DNA from: Pseudomonadota bacterium
GTDB lineage: Bacteria; Pseudomonadota; Gammaproteobacteria; Acidiferrobacterales; Acidiferrobacteraceae
Reading direction: 5' to 3'
DNA: 64,000 nucleotides
Assembly (NCBI GenBank): GCA_021777335.1
Contig: JAJYDT010000007.1
Location: forward strand, 1-64,000
The notes under the pieces were generated by a model. That model made no database searches, was not told the origin of the DNA, and was given only the letters and a program-made list of their open reading frames with translations. Position 1 is the first letter of the stretch; each line of letters begins with the position of its first letter. This document shows positions 1,292 to 42,464 of the stretch, piece after piece. A program made the translations under genes and the position numbers.

Positions 1292-1577
1292 ATGAACCAT
1301 CCGTTCTTTGGGGGGCCTGTCGGGTGCGATCAACATGTGCTTAGTGGCTTCGGGCTTGTCGCGGCGCTCCTGAGGTCCACGGCGCACGCCACCACATATG
1401 GCTACACATCCTTCAACATGCCAGGCGCGTACGGCACCCGGGTCCCTGAAACCCTCCATGCTGTTACAGATGGGCACAGGTCTTGCCCTGCTCGGACTCA
1501 ATCGCCGCGCACACCCCGGGCGACGGCGCGCGCAACATAACAGTTCGCGGTCAGATGAGATCCAACCTACCGCTTGA
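1292..1577 (+). pseudogene. Internally deleted, frameshifted PEP-CTERM gene (decayed unit 2)
   Basis: A GGGAGGAG ribosome-binding site precedes ATG 1292. The first 50 codons give a signal-peptide-like start (hydrophobic core VLSGFGLVAALL, then TAHATTYGY) and then jump straight to the sorting motif. At about 1449-1451 one extra A turns VPEPSM into VPETLH and throws the tail out of frame. In the correct frame the tail reads SMLLQMGTGLALLGLNRR and ends at the TGA at 1575-1577. So most of the mature domain has been deleted and the anchor is frameshifted. The stop is followed within 14 bases by the start of the intact family member. Confidence 0.6.
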
Positions 1578-1590
1578 AGGAGAGACGGCC

Positions 1591-2502
1591 ATGCCAAAGC
1601 GATATCATGCAATGAGGGCAGCGGCATCCGCTGGAACAGAGGACTGTCCGTTCATGGAGAGTCGCGGGATCGGATCGCGCGGCCCCATCGTCCTTGCCGT
1701 TCTGGCCATGATGATCGTGGCCTGGTCGATACCGTGCTATGCGACAACCGACCCGGATCTTGCATACGTCGAGAACGACATCCAGTCGCCGCCCACGATG
1801 TATTCCTACGGCTCATGGGCTGCGAGCAGCGTGTCCCCGTGCTTCGGGAGCAGCTGTCAGAGCAGCAATGGCAATCCCTTCCAAAACCCGTCGAACGTTT
1901 CCTCACTTGTCGGCGGCCTCGGTTCCGCTTCGGCCAGTGCGGATTTATCGACCGGTATCCTGCAGGCCTACGCTCAGGAGGATGGCACGACTGGTTCGAG
2001 CGCGGCCGCAGGTGCCGTATTCTGGGACACCCTGACGTTCTCCGGAGTGACGGGTACCAATACCACGGGGGCGCTCGTCTTCACGGTTCCCGGAAGTTTC
2101 ACCGATGTCGGATACGGCGGCGCCTGCGCTGCGGTGCAGGTGGGCGGGTACGCCCAATGTAACCCGTTCACCGCCCCGGTTCTGAACGCGAGTTCCCCGT
2201 CGGAGACCCTCAGAATCCCGTTCACGCTTTCGAACGGCTCGCCCACCGAGATTGTGGCAGCGCTCTATGGCACAGCCTATAACAGCTTCAACATTGCGAC
2301 CGCCGATCTGAAGGATCCACCGCAGGTGTCGCTACTGCTCCCCACCGGTGTCACGTATACCTCGGCATCGGGTGTGTTCCTGAGCAATACCACCCCGGTG
2401 CCGGAACCGGCCACGTGGGTAACGATGGCGTGCGGGCTCGCGCTGCTCGGACTACGCGCATTGCGCGGCCGGAACGCTCGGACGAGGCGCCGCGCACCCT
2501 GA
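1591..2502 (+). CDS. PEP-CTERM sorting domain surface protein
   Basis: This is the only intact member of the local PEP-CTERM family, 303 residues from an ATG preceded by GAAGGAGAG. A hydrophobic export segment lies at about residues 31-46 (IVLAVLAMMIVAW), preceded by an unusually long polar start; ATG 1654 is an alternative start but lacks a good ribosome-binding site. The mature part is rich in Ser, Gly, Thr and Ala and contains a few cysteines, as expected for an extracellular beta-rich protein. The C terminus has VPEPATW, a hydrophobic helix (ACGLALLGL) and an arginine-rich tail, the signal processed by exosortase. No exosortase gene is in this window. In known systems such proteins go with exopolysaccharide production; the nucleotide-sugar genes at 25-29 kb may be related, but that link is inferred. 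Confidence 0.85.
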   Translation: MPKRYHAMRAAASAGTEDCPFMESRGIGSRGPIVLAVLAMMIVAWSIPCYATTDPDLAYVENDIQSPPTMYSYGSWAASSVSPCFGSSCQSSNGNPFQNPSNVSSLVGGLGSASASADLSTGILQAYAQEDGTTGSSAAAGAVFWDTLTFSGVTGTNTTGALVFTVPGSFTDVGYGGACAAVQVGGYAQCNPFTAPVLNASSPSETLRIPFTLSNGSPTEIVAALYGTAYNSFNIATADLKDPPQVSLLLPTGVTYTSASGVFLSNTTPVPEPATWVTMACGLALLGLRALRGRNARTRRRAP

Positions 2503-35560: not shown

Positions 35561-36439
35561 TCACGCGAGCGTGCGTCCCGCGATCCGTTCGAGTACGCGC
35601 AGGGGCGAGTGCCCTGGTGTGCGCATGGCAGTAACCGGCAGATGCAGCGTTTGTTCGAGCAGGTATTGGCCAGAGAGCGCTGCGTGCAACGTCTGATCGC
35701 TGAATACGATCCACGAGGATCCTGCTGCAAAGTTCACCTCATGCCGGGGCGCGTCGTGCTGATAGGTCTCGTCCATCTTCATACGGTCATGCATCTGCAA
35801 CATGTAGTGATCGTAATCGCTGCGCCGGCCCCGCGTCACGCCAAGAAGGGCGAGCAGGATATGGACGCCAGCCAAGGGGGGTCGGATCATCGGGAGGAAC
35901 CGGCGTGCGCATTCCTCGAAGGGTTCCCCAATGCGCCAGTGGCGTGCGCGGCCCTCGGGATTGATATTACTGAAGACCCGGAGGATGCGGTGCCCGTGAT
36001 TGGGCCGCGAGGCAAATGCGTCCACGTGCAGCTTTCGGTCATCCTTGCGGGGTGAGAGACGGCGATCATCCACCTCTGCCGGACGATAACTCACACGAGC
36101 TTGCGTGATCGCGGTTCTGTAGGACGGCAGCAGCTGCTCGACAAGCGTGAGCGCGTGTTCCCCGAAGCGGCGCATCATGCGCAGAAGCGCTTCGTGTTGT
36201 GGTCCGGTGAGCCGTGTCCCCTGAAGCCGGTTTTTCCGGGGATCGAGGCTGATGTTCTTGCGCCGTCCGTCGAGACAGTCCGGGGTCAGAAACTGCTGCT
36301 CGTCGGGCTCAAGCTCAAAACGCAGCGCCGGAAGATACAGCACAGCGCCCCGTTCGAGTGTCTCCACGGCCTGTGCTTGCGCCGGACCCTGGTGAGGTGC
36401 ACGCCAGTCTGTGATTGGCAGGGACAGCATCGGTTGCAT
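35561..36439 (-). CDS. Kdo 3-hydroxylase family Fe(II)/2-oxoglutarate dioxygenase
   Basis: A 292-residue protein resembling KdoO, which hydroxylates the outer 3-deoxy-D-manno-octulosonate of lipopolysaccharide. The iron-binding motif is LHVDAF (H138, D140), with a probable distal histidine at H252 in TLHAAL. The blocks VSYRPAEVDDR, RILRVFSNINPEGRARHWRIGEP and RRFLPMIRPP are typical of this family. The start ATG 36439 is preferred, with an in-frame TTG further out. It implies a lipopolysaccharide core with modified Kdo. It is divergent from the promoter at 36502. Confidence 0.8.
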   Translation of the reverse strand: MQPMLSLPITDWRAPHQGPAQAQAVETLERGAVLYLPALRFELEPDEQQFLTPDCLDGRRKNISLDPRKNRLQGTRLTGPQHEALLRMMRRFGEHALTLVEQLLPSYRTAITQARVSYRPAEVDDRRLSPRKDDRKLHVDAFASRPNHGHRILRVFSNINPEGRARHWRIGEPFEECARRFLPMIRPPLAGVHILLALLGVTRGRRSDYDHYMLQMHDRMKMDETYQHDAPRHEVNFAAGSSWIVFSDQTLHAALSGQYLLEQTLHLPVTAMRTPGHSPLRVLERIAGRTLA

Positions 36440-36501
36440 GACGCGATCATGGGCTGGCAAAAAAGGTTTTTCAACGGGGTGGGAGGGTTGGAACCTTTCG
36501 T

Positions 36502-36530
36502 TTGACAGCAGCGTTCACGTGGTGTTATAT
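36502..36530 (+). promoter_or_regulatory. Near-consensus sigma-70 promoter
   Basis: TTGACA at 36502-36507 is a perfect -35 box. After exactly 17 bases comes TTATAT at 36525-36530 (consensus TATAAT, with an overlapping TATAAA). This is the best promoter seen by eye in the window. It points at the ThDP enzyme gene starting at 36595. The expected transcription start falls in or next to the palindrome at 36535-36546. Confidence 0.7.
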
Positions 36531-36534
36531 AAAC

Positions 36535-36546
36535 AAACGATCGTTT
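36535..36546. promoter_or_regulatory. Perfect palindrome AAACGATCGTTT, operator-like
   Basis: This 12-base perfect palindrome begins 4 bases after the -10 box, so it should cover the transcription start. AAAC/GTTT half-sites are typical of TetR-family operators. A repressor bound here would block the promoter. No TetR-type gene is in this window, so the regulator is unknown. Confidence 0.5.
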
Positions 36547-36594
36547 CAAAGCGAGCAGGTTCTTGGGAAGGTGTCACCATGACAAGGAGACGTT

Positions 36595-38397
36595 ATGGGC
36601 AGCAAGCGTGATATCGGGACGGCCACTGGCAGGGAGGTGGAGGCGCCGGTGGCGTGGCGAAGGGTCGTCGGTGCGCGACGTCCGGTTCCCGACGTGCTTA
36701 TCGATTATCTGCTGAACGAAGAAGTCGACACGGTGTTCGGGATCCCTGGCGGGGCCATTATCCCAGTGCTCGCAGCCATCGAGCGCGCTCCGGGGATGCG
36801 GTTTGTCCTCGCAAAACATGAGGGGGGCGCTGCCTTCATGGCGGACTGCTATGCGCGTGTAGGTGGCAAGACAGGGGTGTGTCTCGCCACCACTGGCCCG
36901 GGTGCGACCAATCTGTTGACAGGGGTTGCGGCAGCTTATGTGGATTCGGTGCCATTGCTGGTGTTGACCGGGATGAATCCGGTCCCCACCTGGGGCATGG
37001 GCGATTTTCAGGAGTCGTCGGTCTACGGGGTTGATACCGTCGGTCTGTTCCGCCACGTCACCAAACAAAGTGATGTCGTGGTGAGCGAGAAAGTCATGCA
37101 GCCGCTCCTGCGGCGCGCCTTCGCAGTCGCCAACAGCGGGCGTCCTGGCCCGGTCCATCTCGCCATACCGCGCGATGTGCTCGCACGCTCGGTGTGCCCC
37201 GACCTCTGGCCCCCGCAGACCTATCGGTGTGTTCCGCCCGCTGCGGGCGCGGACGAGGTGTCGCGCGTTGCGCATGCCTTGCGCCATGCCGACCGGCCCT
37301 TGATGCTCATCGGCAGCGGTACTTCGTGTGACGCCGCCAAAGCCCTGGCTGCAATCAGCAACGAGCTTGCGGTACCCATGATCGCTACGCCCCGGGCCAA
37401 GGGCCTATTCAGTGACTGTAGTGCGCGTTACTACCTGGGAACTATGGGTATTGCCGCAAGCGCGCGCGTCGACCATTTTCTCGCCACCTCAGGCTGCGAT
37501 CTCGTGCTTTCGATCGGAGCGGGTTTCGGTAGCTACGCGACCAATTCTTGGGATCCTGGGCTGCGCCAGGGCCGCATGATCCAAGTTAACATTGATGCTG
37601 AAGCGATCGGGCGCGTGTATCCGGTAGACCTTGGCATCGTGAGCGATGCAGGCGTCTTCGTGCATGCCTTGAAACGCGCGCTTATGACGCATCCAGCGCC
37701 TGGAACCGGAGTAGCGGATCGTGGCGAGCGCACGCAATGGCTCGTGCCTTATCTCGCCATCCCGGCCTGGTGTTGGCCGCGGGATGAAGCGTCTTGCGCG
37801 AACCGCCCGCTATCCCCCATTGAGATCATCCGCTCAGTGGACCGTGCCGTGCCGGAGGGAGGCATCATCATGGTCGATTCAGGCTCTATGTTGCTATGGG
37901 CTACCCATTATCTTCCTGAAATCCGCTCGCGTCGCTTCATCGGCGTATGGGGTTCTGCCAGCATGGGACACGTTACTGCGGGCGCAATCGGCGCGAGATT
38001 CGCGGCTCCTGAGCGCGCGGTGCTCGCATTGGTCGGCGATGGCTGTTTTCTTATGAACGGCATGGAGATCGCGACCGCAGCCGAGTGGCGTCTGCCCATT
38101 GTGTGGGTTGTAAACGCGAATGCGCAGCTTGGGATGATTCATTACGAGCAACGAGCGTCGGGCCTTACTGCAAGCTCGGAATTCGCACGGTGCGATCTTG
38201 TGAAGGTCGCAATCGGGCTCGGCGCGCACGCGCTGGTCTGCCGCGATGCGATCGAACTCACAGGCGCGATCTGCGAAGGTTTCACGCGCACAGGACCTAC
38301 TGTGATCCAGGTTGACGTGGATCCGACACCCACGCCTCCGATGGGCCAGAAGAAGGCGGGGGGCGCACGCTGGCAGGAATACATCGACAGCATCTGA
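36595..38397 (+). CDS. Acetolactate synthase-like thiamine-diphosphate enzyme
   Basis: A 600-residue ThDP enzyme with the three-domain layout of acetolactate synthases. The catalytic glutamate lies in KHEGGAAFMADCYAR (E76), TTGPGATN follows, and the ThDP/Mg motif GDGCFLMNGMEIATA comes at about 478-492. The start ATG 36595 has AAGGAG five bases away. It could condense pyruvate to acetolactate for branched-chain amino acids or acetoin. There is no small regulatory subunit (ilvN) or ilvC next to it. Related ThDP enzymes such as glyoxylate carboligase, oxalyl-CoA decarboxylase or sulfoacetaldehyde acetyltransferase look similar, so the exact substrate is uncertain. It is first in a unit with an aminotransferase and a haemoglobin. 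Confidence 0.75.
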   Translation: MGSKRDIGTATGREVEAPVAWRRVVGARRPVPDVLIDYLLNEEVDTVFGIPGGAIIPVLAAIERAPGMRFVLAKHEGGAAFMADCYARVGGKTGVCLATTGPGATNLLTGVAAAYVDSVPLLVLTGMNPVPTWGMGDFQESSVYGVDTVGLFRHVTKQSDVVVSEKVMQPLLRRAFAVANSGRPGPVHLAIPRDVLARSVCPDLWPPQTYRCVPPAAGADEVSRVAHALRHADRPLMLIGSGTSCDAAKALAAISNELAVPMIATPRAKGLFSDCSARYYLGTMGIAASARVDHFLATSGCDLVLSIGAGFGSYATNSWDPGLRQGRMIQVNIDAEAIGRVYPVDLGIVSDAGVFVHALKRALMTHPAPGTGVADRGERTQWLVPYLAIPAWCWPRDEASCANRPLSPIEIIRSVDRAVPEGGIIMVDSGSMLLWATHYLPEIRSRRFIGVWGSASMGHVTAGAIGARFAAPERAVLALVGDGCFLMNGMEIATAAEWRLPIVWVVNANAQLGMIHYEQRASGLTASSEFARCDLVKVAIGLGAHALVCRDAIELTGAICEGFTRTGPTVIQVDVDPTPTPPMGQKKAGGARWQEYIDSI

Positions 38398-38416
38398 TCA
38401 TGCACAGGGAGGCAGC

Positions 38417-39406
38417 ATGGATATCTGGCTTGATGGGACAATACGGCGTGATACGGAGATTTCGGTCTCGCCCTGGTCGCATACGTTGCATTATGGGATG
38501 GGAGTATTCGAGGGCATCCGCTCATACGATGGTGCCCATGGCCCAATGGTATTCCGGCTCGGCGATCATCTCAAGCGGCTCAGGTCCTCGGCTGGACTGG
38601 TCGGCATGGATCTCGTCTGGGATCTGCCGGCGCTTGCCACCGCAGTAATCGAGACGCTCAGAGTGAACGGACTCGGGGACGCCTATATCCGGCCTCTTGT
38701 CTACTACGGCGCGGGAGGCATGGCGCTCGATAGCCGGGCACACCCCGTACATCTCCTTATTGCCGCATGGCGCTGGGATGATTATCACGAAGCTTCCCAC
38801 ACGGCCGGTCTGAGCACCCACATTGCGGGCACGCGTCGCTGGTCCGCTACAAGCACGGCGGTACAGGCCAAGGCGGTTGGCAACTATCTGAATGCTCAGC
38901 TCGCGTTTCGCGAAGCGGTATCCTGCGGGGCTGACGAGGCGATTCTTTTGGATGAGCAGGGGTATCTCGCCGAGGGCCCGGCTGCGAACGTGTTTCTTGT
39001 GCGCAACGGCCGGCTGTACACACCGACCACCAGAAATGCCCTTGAAGGAATTACGCGTGACACGGTTATCATGCTTGCGCGTCGGCGTGGATATACGGTC
39101 ATTGAGACCGATCTTACGCGAGAGGATCTTTATCGTGCTGATGAGGCATTCTTCACCGGCACCGCATACGAGATCAGGACCATCGCGTCTGTGGACGGGC
39201 GCAGGATTGGAAACCGCGAGGCGCGACCCGTCTCGGGCTCGCTTTGTGACGCCTATGCAGCGCTCGTGCGCGCTCAGGAGGGTGTTGTGACTGTGGCAAG
39301 CGCCATGGTGGAACACTGGCTTACGCCCGTGTACGCATCGCGTCGCCCGCAGGTGTTTGCGGTTGCTGAGGCTGCACAGTCCTTGCTGGCCAGGGGGCGC
39401 TCATGA
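38417..39406 (+). CDS. ilvE: Branched-chain amino acid aminotransferase (class IV PLP)
   Basis: A 329-residue PLP enzyme of fold type IV. The Schiff-base lysine is in QAKAVGNYLNAQ. The blocks HYGMGVFEGIRSY, YIRPLVYYG, DEAILLDEQGYLAEGPAANVF and GITRDTVI follow the IlvE pattern, and FFTGTAYEI closes it. The start ATG 38417 has GGGAGG upstream, 19 bases past the ThDP enzyme gene. It interconverts Leu, Ile and Val with their 2-oxo acids, fitting a preceding acetolactate synthase. D-amino-acid transaminase is a less likely alternative. Confidence 0.88.
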   Translation: MDIWLDGTIRRDTEISVSPWSHTLHYGMGVFEGIRSYDGAHGPMVFRLGDHLKRLRSSAGLVGMDLVWDLPALATAVIETLRVNGLGDAYIRPLVYYGAGGMALDSRAHPVHLLIAAWRWDDYHEASHTAGLSTHIAGTRRWSATSTAVQAKAVGNYLNAQLAFREAVSCGADEAILLDEQGYLAEGPAANVFLVRNGRLYTPTTRNALEGITRDTVIMLARRRGYTVIETDLTREDLYRADEAFFTGTAYEIRTIASVDGRRIGNREARPVSGSLCDAYAALVRAQEGVVTVASAMVEHWLTPVYASRRPQVFAVAEAAQSLLARGRS

Positions 39407-39771
39407 GTGGTCCGGCGGATAGCCTCTATCAGCGTCTCGGTGGCCGGGTGGGCATCAGGCGCATTGCCGAGGATGTATGGGAGAATCATGTCGCGAACCC
39501 GGAGGTCAGTCCGCGGTATGTGCGCAGCGATGCCGCTGCCATCATCAGGCGCGTGACGGATTTCATTTGTGCAGGTACAGGGGGGCCCGGACCCTATGAT
39601 GGGCCATCGATGCGGCAGGCACACGAAGGTATGAACATCAGCCATCGCGAGTTCATGGCGGTAACCGACGATGTACTGCGTGCGCTCGAAAAAAACCGTG
39701 TGGGCAAGAATGAGCAGGGTGAGCTGTTCTTGCTCCTCTTTTCCCTGCGCAATGAGATCATTCATCAGTAA
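39403..39771 (+). CDS. Group 1 truncated haemoglobin
   Basis: A 122-residue haem protein. The proximal histidine is H74 in MRQAHEGMNIS, after the loop CAGTGGPGPYDGP, and the fold length fits a 2-on-2 globin. At the B10 position, where most truncated haemoglobins have tyrosine, the alignment EDVWENHVANP appears to place tryptophan, as in a subgroup with altered ligand binding. Its ATGA start overlaps the aminotransferase stop, so the two are translationally coupled. It may bind O2, NO or nitrite, perhaps protecting the oxygen-sensitive ThDP step, but that role is inferred. Confidence 0.85.
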   Translation: MSGPADSLYQRLGGRVGIRRIAEDVWENHVANPEVSPRYVRSDAAAIIRRVTDFICAGTGGPGPYDGPSMRQAHEGMNISHREFMAVTDDVLRALEKNRVGKNEQGELFLLLFSLRNEIIHQ

Positions 39772-39951
39772 CGTTGTCATGGGGGGGGCGCGTATGCAAA
39801 TAGCGGTATTGCGAACGGGCAAGGCGACTCGCGTGCGGCACACGCGGTGGTCTAGGATCGAGAGATCCTGATAAGACCCAGGGCCGCCGTCATCGACCTC
39901 ACGGCGCACTTTGCGCAGCTGCTGTCGGAGAAAGTAGCGACCGATCTCAGG

Positions 39952-40315
39952 GATCCACTCTCGCCGGATATATCATCACTTGTGGTTTGGGCACTGACGC
40001 GGCTGCGGCGCAGGCGGCGCGGGCTTTGCCCGGATCAACCGTGGTCAAGGCGCTGAATGGCGTTACTGCCGACAACTTCGCAGATCCAGAATTCAGCGGG
40101 CCGTGGCGCAGATGTTCTATTGCGGCAATAACACGGTCGGCAGAGCGGTAGTCCATGAGCTGATCCTGGCGTGTGGCTATCGCCCGGTTGGATGTGGTAG
40201 TGCGCTCAGCAATGCGCGTTACCTCGAGGCAGTGGCAATGCTCTGGCTTCAATCTGCGTTCTGGGAAGACCGGGCAGCAGGATTTCGCTTCGAGTTAGCC
40301 GGGAAGATTCCCTGA
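39952..40315 (+). pseudogene. Dinucleotide-binding (F420/NADP-type) oxidoreductase, frameshifted remnant
   Basis: Pieces of an NADPH-dependent F420 reductase-like protein appear in three frames. DPLSPDISSLVV starts near 39952. After a frame change comes GTDAAAAQAARALPGS, continuing into VVKALNGVTADNFADPEFSG. After another frame change comes MFYCGNNTVGRAVVHEL, then ARYLEAVAMLWLQSAF, ending at 40315. At least two frameshifts and loss of the N-terminal nucleotide-binding part make it a pseudogene. The rest of the gap from 39772 shows no gene. Confidence 0.7.
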
Positions 40316-40322
40316 GGCACGG

Positions 40323-42464
40323 TCATCTGCCATTGTTCTGCAGGTAGCGCCCGAACGCCACGCCCGCCATCGGCTTTGCAAACAGATAGCCCTGCCCTTC
40401 GCCGCAGCCGTGGGTTTTGAGGAACGAGAGCTGCTCTTCCGTTTCAATTCCCTCGGCCGTGACCTTGAGCCGCAACGTCTTTGCAAGTGAGATCACAGCT
40501 GTCACGATTGCGGCGCTGCTTTGACTTCTGGGAAGCTCGGCAATAAAGGATCGATCAATCTTCAGGCAGTCGATCGGGAACTGGTGCAGGTAACCAAGCG
40601 ACGAGTATCCAGATCCGAAGTCATCAAGTGCGATGCTGACGCCTTGTTCCTTGATCGCGCGAAGCACGCGAGCCGCCGTCTTGGCATGATTGATGAGCCC
40701 GCTTTCCGTAATCTCGATCTCGAGCCGCGACATTGGGATGCCGGCCTCGCGCATACATCCGGACAGTTCTGCGAGCAGATGCTCGTTCTCGAGCTGGTGG
40801 CTCGACACGTTGATTGATAGTCTGAAGTCGTCTGCGACTTCCCAGTTGGCCATCTGTTTCGCGGCTTCGCCGAGAATCCACACCGTGGCCTCACGGATCA
40901 GCCCGGAAGACTCCATCATGGGGATGAATTCCCCCGGGGGCACATGGCCGAATTCCGGATGACACCATCGCATCAACGCCTCGGCGCCGCAGATGTGTGA
41001 TGTACGGAGCACGATGCGTGGCTGGAATTCCACGTGGAGTTCGTCGCGCTGGAGCGCAAGACGGAGTTCGCGTTCGATCCGCAGACGTCGGGACTCTCCG
41101 CGCTGCGGAGTCGCCATGTAGAAGCGATGCTGATTTTTTCCGGTGCGCTTTGCCTGATACATCGCACTGTCCGCCTGCTGCAGTAGCTCGTAGACGTCAA
41201 TGCCATCGCTGAAGGGAAAGATAGTGATGCCGATGCTTGCCGAGATCCGCACCGCCTGGCCATCAATCTCGAGCGGCTGGCTGATGACGCGGGTCAGTTT
41301 TTCCGTGATCGCCTCAATGTGCCCTACTTGGGTGATGTCGCTTAGTACGACAGTGAATTCATCTCCTGACAGGCGCGCGACGGTGTCGGATGCGCGCACG
41401 TTGTCGAGGAGGCGCAACCCGATCTCACGTAGCAGGCTGTCGCCCGCCTGGTGGCCGAGCGAATCGTTAATAACCTTGAATCCATCAAGATCAATGAAGA
41501 GGACTGCGAGCAGAGTCTCGTTGCGTTGGCTGCGTGCAATGGCATGCTGCATGCGGTCGAGGAACAGACCGCGGTTTGGAAGACCGGTCAGCGTGTCATA
41601 ATTGGCAAGGTAGGTAAGGTGTTCTTCCGCCTTCCTGCGGTCTGTGATGTCATGGCTATTGACAAGGTAGACCGGGGGAACCTCGTTATGTGAAAGCTGT
41701 AAACGTACCTCAATTGGATAGCGGCTGCCGTCTTTTCTGCGGTGTTCAGTTTCAAAGATGATCCGGTTTTCCAACCCTTCATGCAGGGGCCGCGCCAGTT
41801 GTTGGATCTCGGCTTCGGACATCACAGGGTTGATATCCGGCACCCGAAGATGCCGAAGTTCATCCCGCGAGTATCCAAGATGGTCAAGCGCCCCCTGGTT
41901 GGCCTGCAGGATCTGCAGAGATGTGCAGTCAACGACATAGATTTCATCCCACGAATGGTCGATGAGACGTCCGAAGCGCAGATCTTCACGATCGAGGCGT
42001 GCAAGTTCCCGGAGATCGCGCGCTACGGATATCACGTAGCGCCGGTCATCGATCACAACCGTATGAGCAACTACTTCGACCGGGATCGGTGTTCCGTCCT
42101 TGGCGACGTGGATCTCTTCAAACGTCGTTGTTTCTTCGCGACAGATCCCGCGTCCCGTGGCGCGGACGCGCTCAACATTCGCGGGAGGGTTCAGCGAGCG
42201 GGCGCTCATTTTCAGAAGTTCATCACGAGTGTAACCAAGACGCGCGCACGCCACGTCGTTCACCGCCATGAAGTTTTCGTGCACGCCACCGACGGAGAGT
42301 GGCGCCACGAATACGGCGTCACCGATACTGTTGAACAGGGTTTCATAGAGCAGGGTCGCCGCATCGCGACCCCGGTTTGTCATCGTGGGCGTATCTTGGC
42401 CCCGCACGTTGCAATCAATGGTGTTCATGAAGTAGATACCGCGCCCAGGCCTTTCCGGGGGCAT
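40323..42464 (-). CDS. PAS-PAS-GGDEF-EAL c-di-GMP signalling protein
   Basis: A 713-residue cytoplasmic protein with two PAS sensor domains (about 40-150 and 165-275), GGDEF (about 280-440) and EAL (about 455-705). The cyclase site reads SGDEF (366-370), a permitted variant, with the metal-binding DLDGFK before it. The EAL site keeps EAL (495-497), LEIEITES, DDFGSGYSSL and KIDRSF. Either or both activities are possible. No membrane helix is seen. The outermost start ATG 42464 is given; ATG 42428 or 42383 would also leave the PAS domains whole. It is transcribed alone. Confidence 0.9.
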   Translation of the reverse strand: MPPERPGRGIYFMNTIDCNVRGQDTPTMTNRGRDAATLLYETLFNSIGDAVFVAPLSVGGVHENFMAVNDVACARLGYTRDELLKMSARSLNPPANVERVRATGRGICREETTTFEEIHVAKDGTPIPVEVVAHTVVIDDRRYVISVARDLRELARLDREDLRFGRLIDHSWDEIYVVDCTSLQILQANQGALDHLGYSRDELRHLRVPDINPVMSEAEIQQLARPLHEGLENRIIFETEHRRKDGSRYPIEVRLQLSHNEVPPVYLVNSHDITDRRKAEEHLTYLANYDTLTGLPNRGLFLDRMQHAIARSQRNETLLAVLFIDLDGFKVINDSLGHQAGDSLLREIGLRLLDNVRASDTVARLSGDEFTVVLSDITQVGHIEAITEKLTRVISQPLEIDGQAVRISASIGITIFPFSDGIDVYELLQQADSAMYQAKRTGKNQHRFYMATPQRGESRRLRIERELRLALQRDELHVEFQPRIVLRTSHICGAEALMRWCHPEFGHVPPGEFIPMMESSGLIREATVWILGEAAKQMANWEVADDFRLSINVSSHQLENEHLLAELSGCMREAGIPMSRLEIEITESGLINHAKTAARVLRAIKEQGVSIALDDFGSGYSSLGYLHQFPIDCLKIDRSFIAELPRSQSSAAIVTAVISLAKTLRLKVTAEGIETEEQLSFLKTHGCGEGQGYLFAKPMAGVAFGRYLQNNGR

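Follow-up and report, generated by a model that had tools for sequence, protein, structure and literature searches.

The stretch of DNA considered here (the window, G000:C131:1-64000, 64,000 nucleotides) belongs to a gammaproteobacterial assembly of 2.57 Mb that is 98% complete, and carries genes for a thiamine diphosphate (ThDP)-dependent enzyme, an IlvE-like class-IV pyridoxal phosphate (PLP) aminotransferase and a truncated haemoglobin, which form one unit (Table 1). The first two genes are separated by a 19-nt gap, and in the ATGA at 39403-39406 the stop codon of the aminotransferase gene overlaps the start codon of the globin gene. A preliminary description of this DNA had named the three coupled families; its coordinates and the overlap are correct, and the families are backed by Pfam and NCBIfam. 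The promoter and the exact palindrome AAACGATCGTTT that it placed at the expected transcription start are likewise both present, while its designation of this promoter as the best in the window is not borne out, because the -10 element is non-standard and the promoter is therefore absent from the consensus-scan list. It missed an extra CGTTCAC half-site in the promoter spacer (36512-36518) and an NpdG-like gene directly 3′ of the globin gene, whose decayed pieces are 39-70% identical to an intact gene (combined E 7e-31). We propose that the trio is the second half of a rare, probably horizontally spread, TetR-regulated metabolic cluster that in this genome is split into two loci.

Table 1. Features of the two loci (window coordinates unless prefixed L060, which denotes contig C87 of the same genome)
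Feature	Position	Strand	Basis
Promoter TTGACA (36502-36507)-N17-TTATAT (36525-36530)	36502-36530	+	sequence; TTGAC(N) and equal spacing in orthologous clusters and on C87
Candidate TetR operator	36530-36549	.	perfect palindrome AAACGATCGTTT at 36535-36546 inside TAAACAAACGATCGTTTCAA, over the expected transcription start
ThDP-dependent enzyme of its own clade, 600 aa (P0001)	36595-38397	+	Pfam TPP_enzyme_N/M/C; below listed NCBIfam cut-offs; tree 100/100
Class-IV PLP aminotransferase, IlvE-like, 329 aa	38417-39406	+	Aminotran_4; TIGR01122 305 bits
Truncated haemoglobin group N, 122 aa	39403-39771	+	Bac_globin; S. benthica HbN E 6e-34; alignments
Decayed NpdG-like NAD(P) oxidoreductase gene	39794-40306	+	pieces in three frames, part missing
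TetR gene	L060:2205-2882	-	contig C87, own genome
Nitroreductase gene	L060:3547-4239		contig C87
U gene	L060:4226-5590		contig C87

Conservation of the gene order and its split in this genome

A homologue scan of GTDB 220, with one genome per species, yielded seven other loci (L004-L009 and L018) in which a ThDP enzyme 52-55% identical to that of the window has the same aminotransferase and globin genes behind it, and the three-gene order is kept in every one of the eight genomes that carry this ThDP clade, the present one included. The hosts are Gallionella acididurans, a Hydrogenophilales metagenome-assembled genome, a groundwater betaproteobacterium, a gammaproteobacterium and several proteobacterial metagenome-assembled genomes; L018 lies on a contig of a relative, G034, and was recovered again as L024 and L061. 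Because L004, L005 and L007 are mutually close, these loci represent approximately six independent lineages, counting the window. At the seven other loci, the gene in front of the trio encodes a protein of ~420 residues, here called U; ahead of it stands a nitroreductase gene in L006, L008 and L018, and a divergent TetR gene lies upstream wherever the contig extends far enough. Six of the other genomes, all but that of L006, have an intact NpdG-like NAD(P) oxidoreductase gene 3′ of the globin gene. A literature search found no report on this gene combination.

Comparison of L004, L005 and L007 gave ratios of non-synonymous to synonymous substitution (dN/dS) of 0.05-0.06 for the ThDP enzyme, 0.14-0.18 for the aminotransferase, 0.02-0.06 for the globin and 0.05-0.08 for U, values that indicate strong purifying selection on all four genes. 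The divergence of the four proteins is also correlated (exact Mantel p of 0.001-0.013 for five pairs and of 0.069 for the aminotransferase and U). That these genes are chance neighbours behind a chance palindrome, an explanation that could draw on the weakness of a 12-base palindrome taken alone, is thus hardly credible: the order is kept in eight genomes, its genes diverge together under purifying selection, and a motif learned elsewhere ranks the window site first (see below). The preliminary description had regarded the link as accidental should the order be confined to this strain and the palindrome be unconserved; the order recurs in seven other genomes, and a matching motif occupies the same promoter position, near TetR genes, in orthologous clusters, so its view that the three genes are linked is supported.

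The cluster is patchily distributed. The operon-type ThDP enzyme and U are found in the same two of 60 relatives (G000 and G034); among evenly drawn samples of the class (369 genomes) and phylum (398), U occurs in no other genome, and in the family of G426 it occurs in 1 of 150 genomes, G426 itself. In plasmids neither P0001 (at E 1e-80) nor U was matched, and U had no match in viral contigs either, which leaves spread by plasmids or viruses unsupported. The patchy occurrence would fit horizontal transfer of the cluster. A close nitroreductase is present in all eight cluster genomes. Those of L004, L005 and L007 share a different but conserved nitroreductase neighbourhood, in which the gene lies between DUF6282 and peptidase-U32-like genes (L068:315-3186, L069:460-3334 and L070:461-3327), and in the L009 genome the off-cluster nitroreductase gene adjoins a TetR gene.

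In the genome studied here, U is absent upstream of the trio, and the rest of the cluster, which the preliminary description missed, is located on contig C87. Since the TetR, nitroreductase and U genes are on C87, and the window retains the NpdG-like gene only in decayed form, the trio of the window appears to be a broken-off part of the ancestral cluster. A second TetR-family-like gene (L060:1563-2126, +) adjoins the cluster TetR gene on C87.

A probable operator motif common to both half-clusters

Taken by itself, the palindrome was rejected as evidence, because its count with two mismatches is near chance in the window (3 matches vs 1.7 expected). The exact 12-mer has no second copy in the whole assembly that would point to a wider regulon, and occurs only once even when one mismatch is allowed. 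The TetR-nitroreductase intergenic regions of the orthologous clusters contain TTGAC(N), a 17-nt spacer and an AT-rich -10 element, followed by CGTT-type sites, such as TAAACGAACGTTCATTTA (L018), TAAATAAACGTTCATTTA (L008) and TAAGTGAATGTTCGTTCACTTA (L006), and the corresponding region of C87 contains ATATATCGTTCACTTA plus GATCGATCGTTCACGA. A six-site weight matrix from which the window was excluded ranked the window palindrome first and second (on the two strands) of 127,954 positions. Because the sites for this matrix were picked by eye, making the result partly circular, a blind Gibbs sampler was added, again with the window left out. The best window match to the resulting 18-base motifs was TAAACAAACGATCGTTTC at 36530, with 18-19 bits, followed by matches of 10-12 bits. 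When 50 upstream regions of the window were scored, that of the ThDP gene, which it shares with the divergent kdoO, reached 21.0 bits, and the best other region reached 5.4; a score of 21.0 bits was attained by 1 of 2000 shuffled matrices and by 1 of 1000 shuffled sequences.

The motif is similarly positioned in the window and in the orthologous promoters, just past the -10 element and, in the latter, beside the TetR gene. In addition, the recognition-helix region of the TetR proteins is nearly constant (VSPAVLYQHF, VYPAVIYQHF, and VSAAVLYQHF on C87). Because a motif learned elsewhere picks the window site first, and at the same position, the palindrome is very probably the operator of the TetR protein encoded on C87, and the two half-clusters probably form one regulon. 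The regulator, which had been given as unknown, thereby acquires a strong candidate, so far on sequence grounds. The divergent gene encodes the Kdo hydroxylase KdoO (35561-36460, -; 395 bits vs a cut-off of 300), and since it has its upstream region in common with the ThDP gene, the operator may affect kdoO as well.

The encoded proteins

P0001 carries the full set of three ThDP domains, a GDG...N motif and, as its catalytic residue, Glu76, but scores below the cut-off of every NCBIfam family listed. It reaches 330.8 bits against a cut-off of 538.35 for acetolactate synthase (TIGR00118), for which the IlvB of the same genome scores 862.6, and 258 bits against 791 for glyoxylate carboligase (PRK11269). 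Sulfoacetaldehyde acetyltransferase (Xsc, TIGR03457) is not among its best 25 families, and the L018 orthologue scores 221 bits against the Xsc cut-off of 676. A maximum-likelihood tree that included IlvB, IlvI, Gcl, PoxB and Oxc of E. coli as references placed the operon ThDP enzymes in a 100/100 clade outside the IlvB/IlvI/Gcl group (98/97). Of the phylogenetic comparisons that the preliminary description called for, those with acetolactate synthase and glyoxylate carboligase thus place the enzyme apart, and on its sub-cut-off scores and separate clade its identity as an acetolactate synthase or glyoxylate carboligase was rejected. Like IlvB and IlvI it has three ThDP domains, a catalytic Glu and conserved Gln and Lys residues, but it has GMIHYEQ where its own genome's IlvB has GMVRQWQ. 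Its nearest solved relative, matching over the full length, is BbmA (PDB 8x3x, 8x3y and 8xod), with 365 bits for P0001 alone and 634 for the family profile, so that it ranks ahead of all acetolactate synthase structures; a literature search did not find a function for BbmA. The sister group of the operon clade comprises enzymes from archaea, Aerophobota, Chloroflexota, Verrucomicrobiota and Armatimonadota. Several sister-clade genes lie directly 3′ of genes resembling STAS-type anti-sigma-factor antagonists rather than beside an aminotransferase and a globin (L010:5635-7704, L013:2383-4446, L015:5628-7707, L016:5630-7707 and L019:5646-7719), with kinase-like and sensor genes nearby, which would tie the ThDP enzyme there to a partner-switching system.

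The aminotransferase resembles IlvE in passing the cut-offs of IlvE_I (TIGR01122; 305.4 bits vs 245.55, with 289.7 for the L018 orthologue) and PRK06606, and it is 47% identical to a housekeeping-type IlvE encoded on contig C15, from which it differs in being tied to a different enzyme set. Because the genome encodes IlvB beside ketol-acid reductoisomerase (KARI) on C28, a second acetolactate synthase (above PRK08322) on C145 and IlvE on C15, the trio is not the normal branched-chain route of the cell. With housekeeping enzymes present elsewhere and the ThDP enzyme outside the acetolactate synthase/Gcl clade and below curated cut-offs, the earlier label of branched-chain genes finds little support.

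The globin is the only Bac_globin protein of the genome (42.7 bits vs a cut-off of 21), with an invariant proximal His74 (F8). By alignment, and with positions numbered after the S. benthica HbN paper (PMC11904497), it has Trp26 (B10), His29 (B13), Tyr39 (CD1) and Val51 (E11); Trp(B10), His(B13) and Tyr(CD1) are each found in all eight operon globins, and positions E7 (Ile/Val) and E11 (Val) are hydrophobic. Its closest relative is S. benthica HbN (8ugz; E 6e-34), which shares Tyr(CD1), His(B13) and the hydrophobic E7/E11 positions but has Phe at B10, and unlike which the operon globins are embedded in a conserved gene cluster. In S. benthica HbN, Tyr(CD1) and His(B13) deviate from the TrHbN-2 consensus, and Tyr(CD1) is involved in peroxide reactivity; a Tyr(B10)/Gln pocket, which the operon globins lack, goes with a high affinity for O2 and use as an enzyme (PMC11904497). 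An HbN of the nitric oxide (NO) dioxygenase type, which would carry Tyr(B10) and Gln(E11), was rejected, as Trp26 and Val51 occupy these positions. The suggestion in the preliminary description that the globin guards against NO is weakened by a pocket made of Trp(B10), Ile/Val(E7) and Val(E11) rather than Tyr and Gln (PMC11904497). The globin may guard against O2 or peroxide, act as a sensor or be a catalyst; a function in peroxide or redox chemistry, or as a dedicated catalyst, would fit these residues better than NO dioxygenation.

U falls into no family of Pfam (searched up to E 0.1) or NCBIfam. Its AlphaFold model (predicted local distance difference test, pLDDT, 77.6; predicted template modelling score, pTM, 0.82) is a triosephosphate isomerase (TIM) barrel, whose best matches are glycoside hydrolase family 1 (GH1) and other clan-A glycosidases (Foldseek E ~1e-7, 8-13% identity; Z ~23 over ~320 residues). 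U thus has a predicted glycosidase-like fold. It gave no sequence-profile match to GH1 (hhalign against three E. coli GH1 proteins, probability 6%). Clan A is marked by two catalytic Glu, at the ends of strands 4 and 7; in the predicted model of U a Glu follows strand 4 (FYEMN), and the invariant GWDAQPQN stretch after strand 7 contains none. Membership of GH1, for which the predicted fold speaks and the sequence does not, was rejected.

Elsewhere in the window, a PAS-GGDEF-EAL cyclic-di-GMP protein is encoded just past the decayed NpdG-like gene (40323-42464, -), convergent with the operon, and an open reading frame at 1483-2502 (+) ends in a tail, VPEPATW...LLGLRALRGRNARTRRR, resembling a PEP-CTERM sorting signal. 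PADLOC gave no match, leaving a role in defence unsupported.

A proposed split, TetR-regulated metabolic cluster

Based on these observations, the ancestral order would have been a TetR gene divergent from nitroreductase - U - ThDP enzyme - aminotransferase - globin - NpdG-like reductase, of which the TetR, nitroreductase and U genes are now on C87 and the trio is in the window, with its own operator copy and the decayed NpdG-like gene behind it. Without inducer, TetR bound to the palindrome over the transcription start would block both half-operons, and an inducer, perhaps a substrate or product of the pathway, would release it. The aminotransferase may interconvert a hydrophobic amino acid and the matching 2-oxo acid. 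The ThDP enzyme would decarboxylate a 2-oxo acid and pass the acyl carbanion to an acceptor, a carboligation of the acyloin type. Redox steps, or their protection, may fall to the flavin nitroreductase, the haem globin and, where present, the NAD(P) reductase, and the product or a precursor may be what U acts on. Several points weigh against this proposal. The substrates are guessed from family membership; the genomes with the cluster are mostly metagenome assemblies; the nitroreductase of the L004, L005, L007 and L009 genomes is 53-57% identical, lies on another contig and is perhaps a different gene; the promoter element of L004 fits the motif less well; and the NpdG-like gene, being decayed in the window and absent from the L006 genome, is dispensable.

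The aminotransferase, which passes the IlvE_I cut-off, the acetolactate synthases among the relatives of the ThDP enzyme, and the constant adjacency of the globin would also suit a second, oxygen- or gas-adapted branched-chain module, built from an alternative acetolactate synthase, an IlvE dedicated to it and a globin that keeps out O2 or NO. We consider this improbable, because the ThDP enzyme falls far short of TIGR00118 (331 vs 538) and outside the IlvB/IlvI/Gcl clade, the cluster lacks a regulatory subunit, KARI and a dehydratase, the canonical enzymes are encoded elsewhere, the globin pocket is not of the Tyr/Gln type, and such a module has no place for U, the nitroreductase or the NpdG-like reductase. 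A less remote alternative, though still an unlikely one, is a TetR-induced route for breakdown or detoxification of an environmental compound, which U would open and the nitroreductase reduce, with the aminotransferase and ThDP enzyme channelling its carbon into central metabolism and the globin handling peroxide. TetR regulators, nitroreductase-family enzymes and peroxide-reactive globins are common in such routes, and the patchy distribution and the predicted glycoside hydrolase-like fold of U agree with one; against it, no transporter is conserved in the cluster, and the conserved stretch that follows strand 7 of U is devoid of Glu.

Within the proposed metabolic cluster, an undescribed biosynthetic pathway in which the Trp(B10) globin catalyses a step on a ThDP-made intermediate, and U founds a new enzyme family, is a tentative idea at best; if true, the globin would be a pathway enzyme rather than a handler of O2 or NO. 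A route to hydroxamates from a nitroso compound plus an oxo acid, prompted by the nitroreductase, is pure speculation, and a literature search found nothing on nitroso or hydroxamate chemistry with this type of enzyme.

Truncated haemoglobins are common, and their physiological partners are rarely known. In this cluster, conservation, selection and probably shared regulation link a globin with particular enzymes, so that its role can be tested. The ThDP clade, which stands apart from the acetolactate synthase families known so far, and U, an enzyme-like protein without a family, together offer a compact target for new chemistry. If our proposal is correct, a split cluster with the same operator at two loci would provide a clear case of a regulon that has survived rearrangement.

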